This document shows positions 1-7,219 of a stretch of 10,905 nucleotides of DNA, one piece after another. This DNA is from Actinomycetota bacterium (lineage in GTDB: Bacteria; Actinomycetota; Actinomycetes; Propionibacteriales; Nocardioidaceae), in NCBI GenBank assembly GCA_009702305.1, contig WLIH01000036.1:1-10905 (forward strand). Reading direction: 5' to 3'. Both the position numbers and the translations under genes were made by a program. Within the stretch, counting starts at the first letter, position 1. Each line of letters starts with the position of its first letter. The notes beneath the pieces were generated by a model. The model had not been told where the DNA came from, ran no database searches, and worked only from the letters and a program-made list of their open reading frames with translations.

Positions 1-2106
1 AGCATCGCCGACAACCTCCGACTCGCCCGGCCGGGCGCGACCGAGGCCGAGCTGTGGTCGGCGCTGCGCAGCGTGGCCCTCGAGGAGCGCGTCCGCACCC
101 TCCCCGACGGGCTCGACGACGGCCTCGGAGAGGACGGCGCCACCTTGTCGGCGGGCGAGCGCGCTCGGCTGGCGCTGGCGCGGGTGGTGGTCGCGGACCG
201 GCCGTGGGTCCTGCTCGACGAGCCCACCGCTCACGTCGACGAGCTCACCGAGCGCATCATCGCCGACACAATCGTCGACCTCGGACGGCGCGCAGGGGTC
301 GTGGTCGTCGCGCACCGCCCCGCCCTGGTCGCTCTCGCCGACCATCACGTCGTCCTGCCCGCTCCGCATCGTCCTCGGGTCGAGGCAGCCGAGACGTCGG
401 CGACCGGGCCGCTCCGCCGCGGCACGGCCACCCCGGCGTACGTCCCGGACTCCCCCGCCCGGGGGACCGTGCGTCGCCAGCTGGCTGTCGGCGCCGTGCT
501 GGGTGCCCTCGCCTCGGCCTCCGGGGTCGCGCTGACCGCGACGGCGGGCTGGCTGATCGTGCAGGCGTCGACGCGGCCTCCCGTGCTGACGCTGCTGGTG
601 GCGATCGTCGGCGTCCGGACCTTCGGGCTCGCCCGTCCGGCGCTGCGCTACGTCGAGCGCCTGACGTCGCACGACGCGGCGCTGCGACTGCTGGCGGCGC
701 GCCGGGTCCAGGTGTACGAGTCGATCGTGCCGTTGACCCCCGGCCGCCTCGGTCGGCGACGGGGAGACGTGCTCGCGTCGATCGTCGACGACGTCGACGC
801 CGTGGTCGATGCCGAGCTGCGGGTGCGGATGCCCGCCCGCACCGCGACGCTGGTCTCGTCGTGCGGCATCGCCGTCGCGACGCTCGTGCTGCCGCAGGCG
901 GGGATCGTGCTGGCGGCGTACTGCGTCGTCGCGGGACTCGGCTCGTGGACGATCGCCCGCATCGGCGCCGCCCGGGCGGAGCGCTCCTACGTCGACCGGC
1001 GCGCAGCCCTGTCCGAGATCGTGCACGACGCCATCCAGGTCCGCGAGGAGCTGCTCATGTGGCAGGCGGTCGACGCGACGTGCGACAGCGTCTCAGCGGC
1101 GAGCGCGGCGCTCGGCAGGTCCGGCACGTCCGCCGCCCGGTGGAGCGCGACGGCCCGGGCGTGGATCTCGGCGACGACGGGAGTCGCGGTGGCAGCGATG
1201 GCCTGGGCAGCGCTCGGTGGCCTCGACGGCGGCATCTCGGCCCCGATGGCAGCACTGCTCGTGCTGGTGCCGCTCGGCCTGAGCGAGGTGATCGCCCCAC
1301 TGCCCGACGCCGCGACCCTGAGCGTGCGCACCCGGGCGTCCGCAGCGCGACTCGCGGGACTCGAGCACGCGACACCGGCGGTGCGGGAGATCCCCGCGAC
1401 GGCTCACCCCCGCGGCACCGCCCTGGACGTGGAGAGAGTCCGCGGCCGGTGGCACGACGCCGCGCCGGTGACCTCCGAGGTGTCCTTCATGGCGGCGCCG
1501 GGCGAGCGGATCGGCATCGTCGGCGCCTCCGGGTCGGGCAAGAGCACGGTCGCAGCACTGCTGCTGCGATTCCTGGACCCGGTGGCCGGCACGATCAGCC
1601 TGGGAGGCGCCACGACGACGAGGATGGGCCTCGACGAGGTCCGCGCGCTCACGGGACTCGTCGACGACGACCCGCACGTCTTCGCCACGACGCTCCTCGA
1701 GAACGTCCGCCTGGCCCGACCCGGCGCCGATGCGCGCGCCGTCGAGTCCGCCCTCGGTCGTGCCGGCCTCGGCACCTGGCTGGACTCCCTGCCCTCCGGG
1801 CTGGACACCTGGCTCGGAGACGGGCACGGCGGCCTGTCCGGTGGCGAGCGTGCACGCCTGGGTCTGGCCCGGTGTCTCCTCGCCGACCAGCCGGTGCTGG
1901 TGCTCGACGAGCCGACCGCCCATCTCGATCACACGACCGCCCGTGCCCTGGCCGAGCACGTCCTGCGCGGTGAGCGGCGGACGACGGTCATCTGGATCAC
2001 CCACGACCCGGTCGGCCTCGAGCTCGTCGACCGCGTCGTCGACCTCGGACCCCACCCGTCGTACGTCTCGTCGGCGAGACGCGACGACCCGGCCGACCGC
2101 CGATGA
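1..2106 (+). CDS. cydDC: Fused CydDC-type thiol/heme ABC exporter, 5'-truncated
   Basis: The reading frame is open from the first base, so the start lies outside the window; 701 residues are visible. Residues 1-115 are the end of a first nucleotide-binding domain: signature LSAGE at 49-53, Walker B with D73-E74, and H105 as H-loop. A transmembrane domain of the CydC type follows at about 155-400; the stretch around 'AIVGVRTFGLARPALRYVER' is characteristic. A complete second nucleotide-binding domain comes next: Walker A GASGSGKST at 508-516, signature LSGGE at 612-616, Walker B D636-E637, H-loop H668. The order NBD-TMD-NBD means CydD and CydC halves are fused in one chain, as in many actinobacteria. 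CydDC exports glutathione or cysteine, or handles heme thiols, and is needed to assemble cytochrome bd oxidase; cydA and cydB would be expected just upstream, which cannot be checked here. The gene converges on the hsp20 gene with a 34-bp gap. Confidence 0.9.
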   Translation, partial: SIADNLRLARPGATEAELWSALRSVALEERVRTLPDGLDDGLGEDGATLSAGERARLALARVVVADRPWVLLDEPTAHVDELTERIIADTIVDLGRRAGVVVVAHRPALVALADHHVVLPAPHRPRVEAAETSATGPLRRGTATPAYVPDSPARGTVRRQLAVGAVLGALASASGVALTATAGWLIVQASTRPPVLTLLVAIVGVRTFGLARPALRYVERLTSHDAALRLLAARRVQVYESIVPLTPGRLGRRRGDVLASIVDDVDAVVDAELRVRMPARTATLVSSCGIAVATLVLPQAGIVLAAYCVVAGLGSWTIARIGAARAERSYVDRRAALSEIVHDAIQVREELLMWQAVDATCDSVSAASAALGRSGTSAARWSATARAWISATTGVAVAAMAWAALGGLDGGISAPMAALLVLVPLGLSEVIAPLPDAATLSVRTRASAARLAGLEHATPAVREIPATAHPRGTALDVERVRGRWHDAAPVTSEVSFMAAPGERIGIVGASGSGKSTVAALLLRFLDPVAGTISLGGATTTRMGLDEVRALTGLVDDDPHVFATTLLENVRLARPGADARAVESALGRAGLGTWLDSLPSGLDTWLGDGHGGLSGGERARLGLARCLLADQPVLVLDEPTAHLDHTTARALAEHVLRGERRTTVIWITHDPVGLELVDRVVDLGPHPSYVSSARRDDPADRR

Positions 2107-2664: not shown

Positions 2665-3528
2665 ATGGACAGCACCCGGATCGCGCTCGGCAGCATCGTC
2701 GTCGGCATCGACGGCTCCGATGCCTCCCACGAGGCGTTGGCGTGGGCACACGAGCAGGCGCTCCTCGAGGGGCGCGGACTCTCGCTGCTGCACGCGCTCG
2801 CGCCACTGAGCGGGGGCGTCCGCGCCTCCCTGATCTCCGCCGGGATCGATCCGGTGACCCTCCGGGTGCAGACCAGGCAGGACGCTCGCCACCTGCTGGA
2901 GGCCGCTCGCGCCGTCGTCGCGGACCGCAGCCCCGACGTCGACGTCGCGACCAGTCTCGTGGAGCTGGATGCCCGCGAGGCCCTCGTCGACGTCTCCCAC
3001 GACGCGTCGCTGGTGGTCGTCGGCTCGCGCGGACTCGGGCCGCTCCTCAGCCTGGTGATGGGATCGGTGAGCCTGTCCGTCGCCCAGCGCGCGGCGTGCC
3101 CGGTCCTGGTGCACCGCCCGCACGACGGCATCCGTCGCGGCATCCTGGTCGGCGTCGACGGATCGCCGCGATCCATGCCGGCCCTGGAGTTCGCGTTCCG
3201 TCAGGCGTCGCTGCGAGGTGAGCCTCTGACCGTGACGCACTGCTTCTGGGACGTCGCCGCCCAGGACGCGGGCCTCAGCGAGATCCGTCGAGTGCTGGCG
3301 GAGATGACGGGCGCGATGAGGGAGAAGTTCCCCGACGTCGACTGGCAGGTGCGCCTCGAGCACGGCCTGGCCGACGTGTGCCTGGCCCAGGAGTCCGATG
3401 TCGCGGACCTGGTCGTCATCGGCCGCACCCATCCGCGCCGTCACCTGCCCTTCCTGGCGCCGGGGGTCGCCACGGCGGTCCTGGAGCACGCGCGCAGCAA
3501 CGTCGCCCTCGTCCCGGACGTCGGATGA
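2665..3528 (+). CDS. Tandem-domain universal stress protein (UspA family)
   Basis: 287 residues, the usual length of the two-domain actinobacterial Usp. Domain 1 (about 8-148) begins with 'IVVGIDGS' (D16) and holds a complete ATP-binding motif G-x2-G-x9-G-S: G120, G123, G133-S134. Domain 2 (about 158-287) begins with 'ILVGVDGS' (D165), but its motif is degraded: G253-x2-H256 and then G267-V268 after ten residues. Nucleotide binding is therefore likely only in the first domain. The ATG at 2665 is chosen for the position of the first Usp strand and the GGGAG at 2651-2655; an ATG at 2657 is in another frame. Usp proteins bind ATP and support survival under hypoxia or growth arrest; their exact target is generally unknown. 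The response regulator gene starts 25 nt downstream on the same strand, so the two may be cotranscribed. The putative DosR-like boxes lie upstream. Confidence 0.92.
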   Translation: MDSTRIALGSIVVGIDGSDASHEALAWAHEQALLEGRGLSLLHALAPLSGGVRASLISAGIDPVTLRVQTRQDARHLLEAARAVVADRSPDVDVATSLVELDAREALVDVSHDASLVVVGSRGLGPLLSLVMGSVSLSVAQRAACPVLVHRPHDGIRRGILVGVDGSPRSMPALEFAFRQASLRGEPLTVTHCFWDVAAQDAGLSEIRRVLAEMTGAMREKFPDVDWQVRLEHGLADVCLAQESDVADLVVIGRTHPRRHLPFLAPGVATAVLEHARSNVALVPDVG

Positions 3529-3553: not shown

Positions 3554-4528
3554 GTGCGTCTGCTGCTGATCGAGGACGACGCCGAGCTGCGCTCGGGACT
3601 GGTCGCCGCCCTGTCGGCCCGCGGACACCAGGTCACCGGCACGGGCACCGGCACCGAGGGGCTGCGCCTCCTCGAGGACCCGCCGGACATCGTGCTCACG
3701 GACCTCGGGCTCCCGGACGTTGACGGTGTCGACCTGATCGCCCGGATCCGGGCCATCTCGCAGGTGCCCGTCGTGGTGATGAGCGGCAACCGTGAGCGAG
3801 GGGTGGCAGCGCGGGCCCTGGACGCCGGAGCAGACGATTACGTGCCCAAGCCCTTCCATCTCGACGACCTCGAGGCACGACTGCGGGCCGCGGCACGCCG
3901 ACCCGCGATCGCCGCCCCGTTGCGCCACGTGCGCGCTGGCGACCTCCACCTCGACCTGGACGCGCGGCGCGCCGACCTGGAGGGCCGGGAGGTCTCACTG
4001 ACCCCGACCGAGTGGAGGGTCCTCGCAGCCCTGGTGGCCGGGCGCGGCAGTGTCGTCAGCTACCGCACGCTGGGCCGCACGGTGTGGGGCGACACCAGCT
4101 ACGTCCGGGCCACCGAGAGCCTGCGGGTCCATGTCGGCGCGCTCCGGACCAAGCTCGGAGGCGGCGATGACCGGTGCGGACCGATCACCACGGCCAGCGG
4201 CGTCGGCTACCGCTGGTCGACAGACGACGACGCCGGGCCCGACGCGGGACCTGACGCGGGGCCCGACACGGGGCCCGACACGGGGCCCGACACGGGGCCC
4301 GAGGACGTCCACTGCCCGCCGGACGACGCGGTCGTGCGGACCGATCGCGCCCTGCGCCACGACCTGTTCAACTGCGTGGCGTCCCTGTCGGTGATCGCCG
4401 GGCTCCTCGACCCCTCGTTCGAGGCCGATCCGGCGGCAGAGGAGCTGGCTCGCCGGCGGATCGGGCCGGCGGTCGACCGACTGCGCGATCTCGCCGCGGA
4501 GATGTCAGCGCGCCTCGACCCGCCGTGA
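3554..4528 (+). CDS. OmpR/KdpE-type response regulator with repeat linker and C-terminal DHp-like tail
   Basis: 324 residues from a GTG start, about 95 more than a normal OmpR-type regulator. The receiver domain (1-115) has the acidic pocket E7-D8-D9, phospho-acceptor D50, switch S77 and K99. The winged-helix domain (about 126-222) carries 'SLTPTEWRVLAALV' (148-161), 'ESLRVHVGALRTKL' (188-201) and the final 'GVGYRW' hairpin. Then come a GPDA/GPDT repeat linker (228-249) and a 70-residue helical tail with R268-H269-D270-L271-F272-N273, which resembles the phospho-histidine helix of Spo0B-type phosphotransferases. No ATP-binding domain follows. The GTG at 3554 places the first beta strand ('VRLLLIEDD') at the N terminus; its SD is weak (GCGGG). 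The gene lies 25 nt after usp and about 100 nt before the signalling operon ending in a histidine kinase. As an OmpR-type protein it should bind direct repeats; a candidate site follows it at 4545-4573. Confidence 0.9.
   Translation: MRLLLIEDDAELRSGLVAALSARGHQVTGTGTGTEGLRLLEDPPDIVLTDLGLPDVDGVDLIARIRAISQVPVVVMSGNRERGVAARALDAGADDYVPKPFHLDDLEARLRAAARRPAIAAPLRHVRAGDLHLDLDARRADLEGREVSLTPTEWRVLAALVAGRGSVVSYRTLGRTVWGDTSYVRATESLRVHVGALRTKLGGGDDRCGPITTASGVGYRWSTDDDAGPDAGPDAGPDTGPDTGPDTGPEDVHCPPDDAVVRTDRALRHDLFNCVASLSVIAGLLDPSFEADPAAEELARRRIGPAVDRLRDLAAEMSARLDPP
4235..4303 (+). repeat. Tandem 12-bp repeat encoding a GPD(A/T) linker
   Basis: Five in-frame copies of a 12-bp unit (GGGCCCGACACG or close variants) plus a partial sixth. 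They encode GPDA, GPDA, GPDT, GPDT, GPDT, GP (residues 228-249). Copies 3 to 5 are identical; copies 1 and 2 differ at a few bases. The result is an acidic, proline-rich and probably extended tether between the DNA-binding domain and the HDLFN tail. Identical tandem copies suggest recent slippage, so copy number may vary between strains. Confidence 0.9.
4346..4516 (+). other. Putative orphan DHp/Spo0B-like phosphotransfer segment (residues 265-321 of the regulator)
   Basis: The segment reads as two amphipathic helices. Helix 1 is R265 to about L285 with 'ALRHDLFNCVASLSVIAGLL'; helix 2 is about A294 to L321, Arg/Glu/Leu-rich. The H-D-x-x-N arrangement (H269, D270, N273) followed by a leucine/isoleucine helix is that of Spo0B-type and related dimerisation/phosphotransfer helices, in which the His is phosphorylated. 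There is no N-box or G-box afterwards, and the protein stops at P324. By family knowledge such a domain can pass phosphate between receivers but cannot autophosphorylate. Alternatively it is only a dimerisation helix pair. Confidence 0.45.
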
Positions 4529-4544
4529 GCCCGCGCAGCACCGG

Positions 4545-4573
4545 ACAAAGTTACAAAGATCCGCGAAAGATCC
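4545..4573. promoter_or_regulatory. Direct repeats in a low-GC patch, candidate OmpR-type operator/promoter
   Basis: The gap between the regulator and the next gene (4529-4629) contains an AT-richer patch, striking against its surroundings. AAAGATCC occurs at 4555-4562 and again at 4566-4573, a spacing of 11 bp or one helical turn. ACAAAG occurs at 4545-4550 and 4553-4558. OmpR-family dimers bind two direct half-sites 10-11 bp apart. The patch ends 56 bp before the next start codon. No textbook -35/-10 pair is clear, so the promoter function is inferred. Confidence 0.45.
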
Positions 4574-4616
4574 CTGGGGAGGGTGACCGGTCGGGTCGAA
4601 GAGCATCACGACACCC

Positions 4617-4623
4617 AGGAGGA
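4617..4623 (+). promoter_or_regulatory. Strong Shine-Dalgarno fixing the 4630 start
   Basis: AGGAGGA, ending 6 nt before the ATG at 4630. This is the best SD seen in the window and decides the start of the small gene. A GTG at 4525, overlapping the regulator's stop codon in the same frame, is less likely, because the extra 35 residues would cover the AT-richer repeat patch. Confidence 0.8.
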
Positions 4624-4629
4624 CCCGAC

Positions 4630-4965
4630 ATGCTGACCATCGTCATCCCCGCCGACGGCGCGGACATCCGACGCGACACCCTCGTCGATGTCGCCCACCA
4701 CCAGCTCCAGCTCGACCGCGGGCTGGAGCCCGGGGAGCTCGTCGTCGCGGTCTTCCTCGACGACTCGACCTGGCTCGCCGAGGTCGTGGACCTCGAGTTC
4801 ACGCTCGGCGAGACCCGCTACCTGCTCCGCGCCACCCACCCGCGCGGCCAGCGCGTCGCGCCGGCGCCGGAGCGCGGGCGGCCGGTGACCACAGCACAGG
4901 TCACCTACCTGCTCGACCTCATGGCGTCGGAGCGCCTCACCACGGCGACGGCGCCGCGATCATGA
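4630..4965 (+). CDS. Small unknown protein of the signalling operon (first gene)
   Basis: 111 residues, family not recognised. No signal peptide or membrane segment is seen. The sequence alternates short hydrophobic strands ('MLTIVIP', 'LVVAVFLDD', 'TWLAEVVDLEF', 'TRYLLRATH') with charged loops, then a helix near 'TAQVTYLLDLMASERL' (about 88-103). This suggests a small soluble beta-rich domain. It has the strongest ribosome-binding site of the cluster and its stop overlaps the start of the CheY-like gene (ATGA), so its translation is probably coupled to that gene. Its place ahead of a receiver and kinase suggests a partner or sensor-input role in that pathway; this is inference from context only. 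A high start-site certainty comes from the SD at 4617-4623. Confidence 0.75.
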   Translation: MLTIVIPADGADIRRDTLVDVAHHQLQLDRGLEPGELVVAVFLDDSTWLAEVVDLEFTLGETRYLLRATHPRGQRVAPAPERGRPVTTAQVTYLLDLMASERLTTATAPRS

Positions 4966-5339
4966 GCACCATCCTGGTCGCCGACGACGAGGCCGACCTG
5001 CGCGACCTGATGGCCGTCGTCCTGGAGTCGGCCGGCCACGACGTGATCACCGCCCGCGACGGGGTGCACGCCATCGCGCAGAGCGCTGCCCACCAGATCG
5101 ACCTCGTCGTCCTCGACGTGATGATGCCCCGCGCCACCGGCGTCGAGGTGCTGGGCGAGATCCGGGCCCGCTCCGGCTCCCAGCCCGCGGTCCTGATGCT
5201 CTCGGCCCTGTGCAGCCGAGCCGACATCCGAGCCGGCTACATCGCCGGCGCCGACGACTACATCGCTAAGCCGTTCTCGATGCAGGAGTTCGTCGACCGC
5301 GTGCACACCCTCCTCGACGAGCGGGCCGTGCTGGCATGA
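4962..5339 (+). CDS. Stand-alone CheY/Spo0F-like receiver protein
   Basis: 125 residues, a single receiver domain without an output domain. The acidic pocket is D8-D9, the phospho-acceptor D52 in 'LVVLDVMMP', the switch residue S81 in 'VLMLSA', and K103 in 'IAKPF'; all key residues are present, so it should be phosphorylated. The ATG lies in an ATGA overlap with the upstream gene, and its own stop overlaps the next start in the same way. Single-domain receivers act either by protein contact or as phosphate shuttles between a kinase and a phosphotransferase (Spo0F, CheY). With the kinase gene two positions downstream and a phosphotransfer-like tail on the nearby OmpR-type regulator, a shuttle role is plausible but not shown. 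Confidence 0.93.
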   Translation: MSTILVADDEADLRDLMAVVLESAGHDVITARDGVHAIAQSAAHQIDLVVLDVMMPRATGVEVLGEIRARSGSQPAVLMLSALCSRADIRAGYIAGADDYIAKPFSMQEFVDRVHTLLDERAVLA

Positions 5340-5632
5340 GCGGGCCAGCCACCGTCGTGGTCGAGACCGACCACCACCTCGCCCTGGCGCCGCTCGCGAG
5401 CCTGGTGTGCATCGAGATGCCTGCCGGGCTGCCCGCGCTGGGCTCGCGGATCGTGCTCCGGGGATTGGACGGCGCCATGCGGGACGCGATCGTCACGACC
5501 GTCGATCCTCGCAGCGGTGCGATCGCCGCTGCGGTCGGCTGGCCGGTCACCCGCCGTCAGCTCATCGAGCGCGGCTATGCGTGGTCCGGTCTCCGGCACG
5601 ACGGCGGCCTCCGCTTCGTGGTCTGCGGGTGA
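5336..5632 (+). CDS. Small unknown protein between receiver and kinase
   Basis: 98 residues, family not recognised. The start is the ATG of an ATGA overlap with the receiver gene. No signal peptide or membrane span is seen. It has beta-rich blocks ('ATVVVETDHHLA', 'LVCIEMPAGLPALGSRIVLRG', 'DAIVTTVDPRSGAIAAAVGW') and ends in 'GLRFVVCG'. The middle, a short barrel-like run with repeated Gly turns, is compatible with a small SH3- or PilZ-like barrel, but no fold can be assigned by eye. The kinase gene begins 3 nt after its stop (or 30 nt, if the ATG is used). Being locked between the two signalling genes by overlapping codons suggests that it works with them, perhaps as an adaptor. Confidence 0.75.
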   Translation: MSGPATVVVETDHHLALAPLASLVCIEMPAGLPALGSRIVLRGLDGAMRDAIVTTVDPRSGAIAAAVGWPVTRRQLIERGYAWSGLRHDGGLRFVVCG

Positions 5633-5635
5633 GGC

Positions 5636-7219
5636 GTGCCGGAGCCGAGAACCTCGGAGAGCATGGCCGACGACGTCAGCGTCACGTCCGCCGTGGAGCG
5701 CCGGCTCGCCGAGCAGGCGATGCTGCTCGAGCACGCCAACGACGCGATCGTGGTGCGCGACCTGGGCGGCCGGATCACGTACTGGAGTCCCGGCGCGGAG
5801 CGCCTCTACGGGTGGCCGGCCGACGACGCGTGCGGGCGACTGCTCGACCGATTCCTCCGCACCCAGCGTGATCCGGCGGCCTCGACCGAGGTCGTGACCG
5901 AAGCCCTGCTCGGCGCCGGCAGCTGGGAGGGGGAGCTGACCCAGCGCAGCCGCGACGGTGCGGAGCTCACGGTGCTGAGCCGCAAGACCCTGCTCCGCGG
6001 CGAGTCCGGCGAGCCGTACGGCGTGCTGGTGATCGCCAGCGACATCACCGCGCGACGCAGGGCCGAGCAGGCCCTGGCGCGCAGCGAGGAGCTCTTCCGC
6101 TCCCAGTTCACCTACACCGGCGTCGGACAGGCGATCAGGTCGCCCGACGACGTCCTCGAGTCGGTCAACCCGGCCCTCGCGCGGATGCTCGGCTACGACG
6201 ACATCGCCGACCTCGTCGGCCGGTCGGCCTGCAGCCTGGCGACGCCCGCGAGCATCACGACGCGCCGGGCAGAGCTGCTGCCGGTCTACGCCGGCGAGCG
6301 CGAGGCGGTGTCGTTCGAGGCGCAGATGATCCACCGGGACGGGACGCTCGTCGACGTGCAGTACACGTCGTCGGTGATCCGCGACGTCGACGGCCGGCCG
6401 CTGCGCTTCATCTCCACCTTCCAGGACATCTCCGAGCGCAAGCGGGCCGAACGGGCCCGCGACCTCGCCGTCGCCGAGCTCCAGGCCCGTCACGACGAGC
6501 TGGCGGCGATGAGCCAGCTCAAGACCGACCTCATGGGCATCCTCGGCCACCAGCTCAAGAACCCGGTGGCGAACCTCTCCATGGCAGCCGAGGTGGCCAG
6601 TGCGACCTGGGCTGCGGACAGCGCTCCGGCCCAGGGTCGCTTCCTCGACCTGGTGACGCGCAACGCCCAGCGCATCCAGCAGACCATCGACGAGGTGCTC
6701 AGCATGGTGGCCGTCGACAGCGGCCAGCTGACAGCCCACCCTGATCAGGTCCGCCTCGTCGACCTGGTCGACGAGGCGGTCGCGTCCACGGGAGTGAGTG
6801 CACGGACCGAGGCCGACGCCGCTGTCGTCGTGCTGGCGCAGCGCGACCACCTCCACCACATCCTCGACAACCTGTTCTCGAACGCCGTGAAGTACGCCCA
6901 CGCCAGGATCGAGGTGCGCGCATCGGTCGTGGACCCGGCCGGCGAAACCTCGGCGCAAGCGGCGATCGAGGTCGTCGACGACGGCCCGGGCATCCCGGAG
7001 GCCTTCCAACCCCACCTCTTCGAGCGGTTCGCCCAGCGGGACAAGTCGGGCCGACCCGCGGGCGGCACCGGACTGGGGCTGTTCATCGCGCGTCAGCTCG
7101 CCCGCGCCAACGGCGGCGACCTGGTGCTCGAGAGCTCGGTGGTGGGCCGGACCTGCTTCATCCTGACGCTGCCGCTGGCGCCAGACCCGGGCACGGCGTC
7201 CGATCCCACGACGACGTGA
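5636..7219 (+). CDS. Soluble PAS-PAS histidine kinase
   Basis: 527 residues from GTG 5636. An ATG at 5663 (518 residues) with GGAGA just before it is an equally possible start; neither SD spacing is ideal. Domain order: PAS 1 (about 27-145, ending 'ASDITARRRAEQAL'), PAS 2 (about 149-270, ending 'QDISERKRAE'), a short coiled coil, HisKA (about 290-360) with H305 in 'LGHQLKNPV', and a HATPase domain (about 405-518). The latter has the N-box at N416 ('DNLFSNAVKYA'), G1 at D449-x-G ('DDGPGIP'), the F-box 'LFERF', and G2 GTGLGL at 477-482. No transmembrane segment exists, so it senses a cytosolic cue. No haem- or FAD-binding residue can be named with confidence. The residue after the phospho-His is Gln rather than Glu or Asp. 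It is the last gene of the overlapping operon starting at 4630, and its likely targets are the CheY-like protein and/or the OmpR-type regulator. Confidence 0.93.
   Translation: MPEPRTSESMADDVSVTSAVERRLAEQAMLLEHANDAIVVRDLGGRITYWSPGAERLYGWPADDACGRLLDRFLRTQRDPAASTEVVTEALLGAGSWEGELTQRSRDGAELTVLSRKTLLRGESGEPYGVLVIASDITARRRAEQALARSEELFRSQFTYTGVGQAIRSPDDVLESVNPALARMLGYDDIADLVGRSACSLATPASITTRRAELLPVYAGEREAVSFEAQMIHRDGTLVDVQYTSSVIRDVDGRPLRFISTFQDISERKRAERARDLAVAELQARHDELAAMSQLKTDLMGILGHQLKNPVANLSMAAEVASATWAADSAPAQGRFLDLVTRNAQRIQQTIDEVLSMVAVDSGQLTAHPDQVRLVDLVDEAVASTGVSARTEADAAVVVLAQRDHLHHILDNLFSNAVKYAHARIEVRASVVDPAGETSAQAAIEVVDDGPGIPEAFQPHLFERFAQRDKSGRPAGGTGLGLFIARQLARANGGDLVLESSVVGRTCFILTLPLAPDPGTASDPTTT

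Follow-up and report, generated by a model that had tools for sequence, protein, structure and literature searches.

The window studied here is positions 1 to 10,905 of contig WLIH01000036.1 (assembly GCA_009702305.1, here G000, fragmented and 75.6% complete) from an actinomycete of the family Nocardioidaceae. Positions 3554 to 7219 hold five genes, all on the forward strand, for an OmpR-type response regulator, small protein 1, a free receiver, small protein 2, and a PAS-PAS histidine kinase. The regulator continues past its DNA-binding domain into a tail that bears a histidine motif. Is this tail a phosphotransferase fused to the regulator that it would serve? The analysis indicates that the tail is a kinase-derived dimerisation and histidine phosphotransfer (DHp) domain, evolutionarily linked to the free receiver. 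The computed support is threefold: the homology of the tail to HisKA, an invariant His, and the linkage to the free receiver.

The tail of the regulator

The regulator consists of the following parts.
3554 to 4528 (+): OmpR/PhoB-type response regulator, 324 residues, with a C-terminal DHp-like tail
3563 to 3883 (+): its receiver domain, residues 4-110, phospho-acceptor D50 (Pfam Response_reg, 2.3e-23)
3983 to 4213 (+): its winged-helix DNA-binding domain, residues 144-220 (Pfam Trans_reg_C, 2.1e-15)
4220 to 4327 (+): flexible linker with GPDTGPDA-like repeats, about residues 223-258 (from sequence and model confidence)
4328 to 4516 (+): DHp-like two-helix tail, residues 259-321 (model helices, HisKA match of the family, 18-tail alignment)
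4358 to 4360 and 4370 to 4372 (+): codons of H269 and N273 in the tail

The receiver and the Trans_reg_C winged helix, the only Pfam domains of the protein, are those of an OmpR/PhoB-type regulator. In a single-chain structure model built with an alignment of 34 ordinary regulators, both domains are confident and the linker is disordered, with a predicted local distance difference test score (pLDDT) below 50 at residues 228-265. The tail forms two helices of moderate confidence (residues 259-284 and 293-321), and the same hairpin was obtained when the tail was folded alone without an alignment (mean pLDDT 78.5). The H-box, H269-D-L-F-N273, lies in the first helix. The window model thus has what characterizes a HisKA DHp domain, two hairpin-forming helices, the first of which bears H-D/E-x-x-N/T. 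A first-pass annotation, made from this DNA alone, had described an OmpR-type regulator whose C-terminal tail carries an HDLFN helix but no ATPase domain, and had named structure prediction of the tail as a check. The description was borne out, and the tail is a real DHp-type domain without an ATPase domain.

By itself, the window tail matched no Pfam family. In a Foldseek search its hairpin reached a best E of 1.1, with kinases mixed among unrelated hairpins. The kinase homology was found with the family of tails described below. Pfam HisKA was matched by 13 of 16 tails at E ≤10 (best 6.8e-6). A profile of the 16 tails, searched against the PDB sequences, matched the DHp domain of QseC (3jz3) at 2.1e-5 with the H-boxes aligned, the next kinase lying at 0.014. 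Conversely, a kinase profile made from the loci, with no tail rows in it, picked up four tails (1.7e-5 to 2.2e-4). The Spo0B-type family is absent from the six Pfam families that matched any of the 16 tails at E ≤10. Thus, of the earlier idea that a Spo0B-like step is fused to the final regulator, the fusion of a DHp-type tail stands, while by Pfam this tail is HisKA-like and not Spo0B-like. It is not built like ChpT (HPTransfase) either, since the protein ends with the tail, without a degenerate ATPase-like domain, and the window tail has no Pfam match.

Relatives of the regulator and their neighbouring genes

Is such a tail found in other genomes? The first relative, L116, came to light near a gene related to that of small protein 1. 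Its OmpR regulator is 36% identical to that of the window and has its own linker and a tail with RLHDLSN. Further relatives were sought by genome scans with a two-row profile (215 genomes of the genus), a 16-row profile, and tail profiles. In total, 18 His-tailed regulators were found, 17 in 17 of the 215 genomes of the window's genus and one, L271, in a different genus of the same family; both L271 and L270 surfaced only with the tail profile (149 genomes of the family). In a search of 209 genomes with the tail profile, the 17 reach 6.1e-17 or better, and the next matches begin at 1.1e-9. Those weaker matches that were read, which do not include the second of genome G228, are kinases, except the short frame L295. 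The latter, at 1432 to 1698 (+) of its locus, has 89 residues with little beyond a DHp domain (AHDLNNP), and may be either a phosphotransferase that stands alone or a broken kinase.

In all 18 tails, D or E comes directly after the His, and the +4 position holds N in 17 and T in one, although the presence of the motif helped to define this set. In the 18-row alignment, with a mean column identity of 40%, only this His and one Arg of helix 2 are invariant. Since the His is kept in 18 of the 18 regulators of the same architecture, the H269 motif is judged to be more than chance; conservation in homologues was a point on which the first-pass annotation had staked its reading. The tail has an omega of 0.07-0.21 in six of eight pairs, indicating purifying selection, while the remaining two gave 0.56 and 1.08. 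In six of the eight pairs the linker is looser than the tail. The phospho-acceptor corresponding to D50 is kept in all 16 regulators of the alignment A2.

Among the matches listed for the order (342 genomes, six candidates each) and the phylum (396 genomes, five each, cutoff 1e-80), none outside the genus covered the tail in full. Rarer members may have escaped these scans, since it took the tail profile to find L271 and L270. The best 80 matches of a contig scan with the whole regulator were ordinary regulators. Among 84 filtered regulators listed, the five entries that extend at least 25 residues past the winged helix are all copies of the regulators of the window or L116. L079, with a listed match to residue 321, and four others with matches past residue 245 were rejected, as their frames merely run through a stop codon. 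With the single tail sequence, 147 genomes of the genus yielded the window and five weak matches (L090-L094); L090-L092 were taken for chance once the frames were read.

The genes around the regulator are arranged as follows.
2665 to 3528 (+): universal stress protein gene, two Usp domains (Pfam Usp, 4e-36, two stretches)
4630 to 4965 (+): small protein 1, 111 residues (genome matches)
4962 to 5339 (+): stand-alone receiver, 125 residues, D52 codon at 5115-5117 (Pfam Response_reg, 4.5e-26)
5336 to 5632 (+): small protein 2, 98 residues, an orphan
5636 to 7219 (+): kinase with PAS, PAS, HisKA and HATPase_c domains, start GTG 5636 or ATG 5663, H305 codon at 6548-6550

Is the free receiver a constant companion of the tail? 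A survey of genomes for co-occurrence had been suggested, and a free receiver gene adjoins 18 of the 18 tailed regulators. At most 443 bp separate each regulator gene from the closest single receiver domain (one pair overlaps by 13 bp), and in 12 cases the two share a strand. By comparison, the same listing for the genus supplied 18 OmpR regulators without a tail, and none of these has a single receiver within 5 kb. Neither sample is independent, since the controls were hand-chosen from high-scoring rows and 11 of them form one close group, and the tailed regulators include several close pairs. Two single-contig genomes have 28 Trans_reg_C places, 17 of them with a receiver and a winged helix; a single receiver stands beside both tailed regulators and beside none of the 15 tail-less ones (flanks of about 1.5 kb). 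Sixteen of the 18 tailed loci have a kinase catalytic domain no more than 4 kb away; of the other two, L160 has mere pieces in two frames, and L116 has none. In L156, a 199-residue DHp/ATPase-like frame at 4887 to 5486 (+), with NHEMRTS, adjoins the tailed regulator; its ATPase part looks incomplete, and it is somewhat reminiscent of ChpT or Spo0B.

In the window, the last four genes of the cluster abut or overlap one another, the receiver gene starting within that of small protein 1 and the small protein 2 gene within that of the receiver. The two small proteins had been described as locked into the operon. The overlapping and abutting genes agree with this, but a 101-bp gap separates the regulator gene from small protein 1, and small protein 1 alone recurs, being present at the window, L116, L165, and L166 among 16 loci. 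Neither small protein matched Pfam. Matches to small protein 1 occur in 16 of 96 genomes, its own included, and outside the window (L096-L114) a receiver-like frame lies in the 3-kb locus at 11 of 19 places. Its family has no Pfam or NCBIfam match, and in the genus its members are frequently encoded close to receiver genes, some of which may not be of the OmpR kind. Small protein 2 has no convincing relative in 98 genomes (best match 3.9e-4). A distant relationship between the two small proteins was considered and dropped (4.6 bits over 22 residues). The Usp gene, whose end is 25 bp before the regulator, may be part of the same unit; a scan for promoters and terminators found none. The 125-residue receiver also has a sub-threshold match to DUF3088. 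All five cluster proteins look soluble, as had been said of the kinase, because no 19-residue stretch averages more than 1.57 on the Kyte-Doolittle scale.

Proposed phosphate flow through the tail

What might the tail do? The residues that the first-pass annotation had assigned to a His-Asp-His-Asp relay are all in place: H305 of the kinase, D52 of the free receiver, and H269 and D50 of the regulator, together with N273. Intact His and Asp sites thus exist for all four steps, while the flow from kinase to receiver to H269 to D50 is a proposal. In this proposal, the DHp domain of a kinase, minus the ATPase domain, has been attached via a disordered linker to the C terminus of an OmpR-type regulator. 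Two regulators would most likely pair through their tails into a four-helix bundle, onto which the neighbouring free receiver would dock. H269 would exchange phosphate with D52 of the receiver on the one hand and with D50 of the regulator on the other, within one chain or across the dimer. The free receiver may be a donor or a sink, the direction being conjectural, and N273 would additionally let the tail drain phosphate. A relay with a fused phosphotransferase is the most economical reading. With its third step built into the output regulator, it is the leading mechanism; it is unproven, and I give it an even chance.

Several observations weigh against it. The H-box of the window kinase (6548-6562) is HQLKN, with Gln at H+1 where the acidic residue for autophosphorylation belongs, so that the kinase departs from the HisKA pattern; its HATPase_c match is strong (9.9e-25). 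No relative of this kinase was found at 1e-60 in 29 other genomes searched. Some HQ kinases do work. For CrdS, the one protein family on which the H+1 position was judged here, passages of PMC3510030 report that E372Q has full phosphatase activity and no autokinase activity, and that E372D is likewise without kinase activity, though D is common there. L116 has no kinase within 5 kb. In addition, the tail H-box is no closer to that of the local kinase than to others (p 0.28; 8 representatives of 14 loci); the window's own tail and kinase pair is the best of its row.

The Gln of the kinase could mean that the kinase's ATPase domain phosphorylates the tail His in trans, with the tail as the DHp substrate. 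The window kinase combines Gln at H+1 with a strong HATPase_c domain, and the tail keeps the acid. However, by eye, the +1 position is D or E in the other kinase H-boxes listed from the surroundings of tailed regulators, save in L168, where a second kinase-like frame lacks a clear H-box, and the free receiver is left unexplained. I regard such a split kinase as very improbable.

Is the tail instead a built-in phosphatase? It would bind its own or the free receiver and hydrolyse phospho-Asp with N273; the kinase would phosphorylate D50 directly, and the free receiver would compete for the tail or control it. An ATPase domain is not required for this, and N or T at +4 in all 18 tails is the residue that a HisKA phosphatase needs. 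In CrdS, according to the same passages of PMC3510030, N375 is needed for phosphatase activity and N375T is half active. Yet the His and the +1 acid are as strict as the Asn in the 18 tails, though the CrdS phosphatase tolerates E372A fully and H371A largely (PMC3510030, same passages). A pure phosphatase is disfavoured because both the His and the acid are kept, while the retention of the Asn allows such an activity; on balance this reading is rather unlikely.

Two groups of exceptions also tell against the relay. Nine sister regulators (L198, L207, L235-L241), picked for long frames past the winged helix, have extensions of 60-85 residues without H[DE]xx[NT], the His being in place in three by eye. 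Eight of them keep a receiver gene within 143 bp, and that of L241 lies at 2.3 kb. As the nine form one clade (support 97/97), the motif was either lost there or gained elsewhere. Support for separating all extended from tail-less regulators is low (57/72), the tree has no fixed root, and the window regulator sits on a very long branch (1.41). The free receivers of L207 and L235-L240 keep the Asp and the Lys, and several look shortened around helix 4 by eye. The second exception is L270, whose regulator (5870 to 6946, −) has a receiver without the phospho-Asp and the acidic pair. Its tail keeps H-E-L-S-T, and an intact free receiver gene overlaps the regulator gene. Because of this receiver, transfer from the tail His to the own Asp cannot be general. 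Taken together, the sister clade and L270 show that the link between tail and free receiver is more general than that between the tail His and the own Asp.

Is the tail, then, a functionless remnant of a regulator-kinase fusion? The absence of the motif from the sister clade would fit this, but the His invariance and the purifying selection in six of eight pairs make a remnant scarcely credible. Alternatively, the tail may be a docking or dimerisation platform, in which binding of the phosphorylated receiver, or phosphorylation of H269, changes how the regulator dimerises and binds DNA, no phosphate passing to its own Asp. L270 keeps the tail His and the free receiver despite its dead receiver, and the sister clade retains tail and receiver gene without the motif. 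On the other hand, D50 is kept in the 16 A2 regulators, so that the own receiver is probably still used in most; a platform alone is unlikely. A bolder variant is a transcription factor that reads out the free receiver with its own histidine phosphotransferase. The phosphorylated receiver would load the tail His, and in some lineages such as L270, phospho-His or the docked receiver, not the own Asp, would be the final DNA-binding switch. This variant is unlikely.

Comparison with known systems

Has a similar regulator been described? By title and abstract, no regulator with a C-terminal DHp domain was found in the open-access literature, subscription papers and supplements being outside the scope. 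The KinA-Spo0F-Spo0B-Spo0A relay has the same components: a sensor kinase, a free receiver, a DHp-type phosphotransferase, and a DNA-binding regulator. Spo0B is a separate protein, whereas the DHp domain of the window, HisKA-like by Pfam, is part of an OmpR-type regulator. In Caulobacter, CtrA is OmpR-type and CpdR is a free receiver. The CckA-ChpT-CtrA system also uses a DHp bundle as a phosphotransferase, but ChpT forms a dimer of its own and carries a degenerate ATPase-like domain, unlike the window tail (PMC3433190, in its passages on ChpT, which also cite the Spo0B bundle; for a Paenibacillus Spo0B, see parts of PMC12826061).

A precedent for the order kinase, single receiver, kinase-derived His protein, and regulator is PhyT. 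In the Pak-SdrG-PhyT-PhyR system of Sphingomonas, several kinases feed a free receiver, a kinase-derived His phosphotransferase, and a regulator; unlike in the window, PhyT is a separate membrane protein and PhyR targets an anti-sigma factor (PMC5898713, in part). A domain survey counted 125 proteins with both phosphotransfer and receiver domains, and such proteins, for example CbbRR1, resemble the window regulator in carrying both on one chain (passages of PMC3018481). In the Red system of Myxococcus, covered in the same passages, a transmitter that apparently cannot phosphorylate itself obtains its phosphate from a receiver. A chain of receiver, winged helix, and DHp domain is not described in those passages; parts of a 2025 review of the field were also consulted (PMC12471899). 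If the relay proposed here is true, it unites phosphotransferase and output regulator in a single polypeptide and would bridge stand-alone phosphotransferases (Spo0B, ChpT, PhyT) and simple regulators. The family offers a natural series of an intact tail, a tail with a dead receiver, and a tail without the motif, with which the function of a kinase-less DHp domain and the gain and loss of relay steps can be tested.

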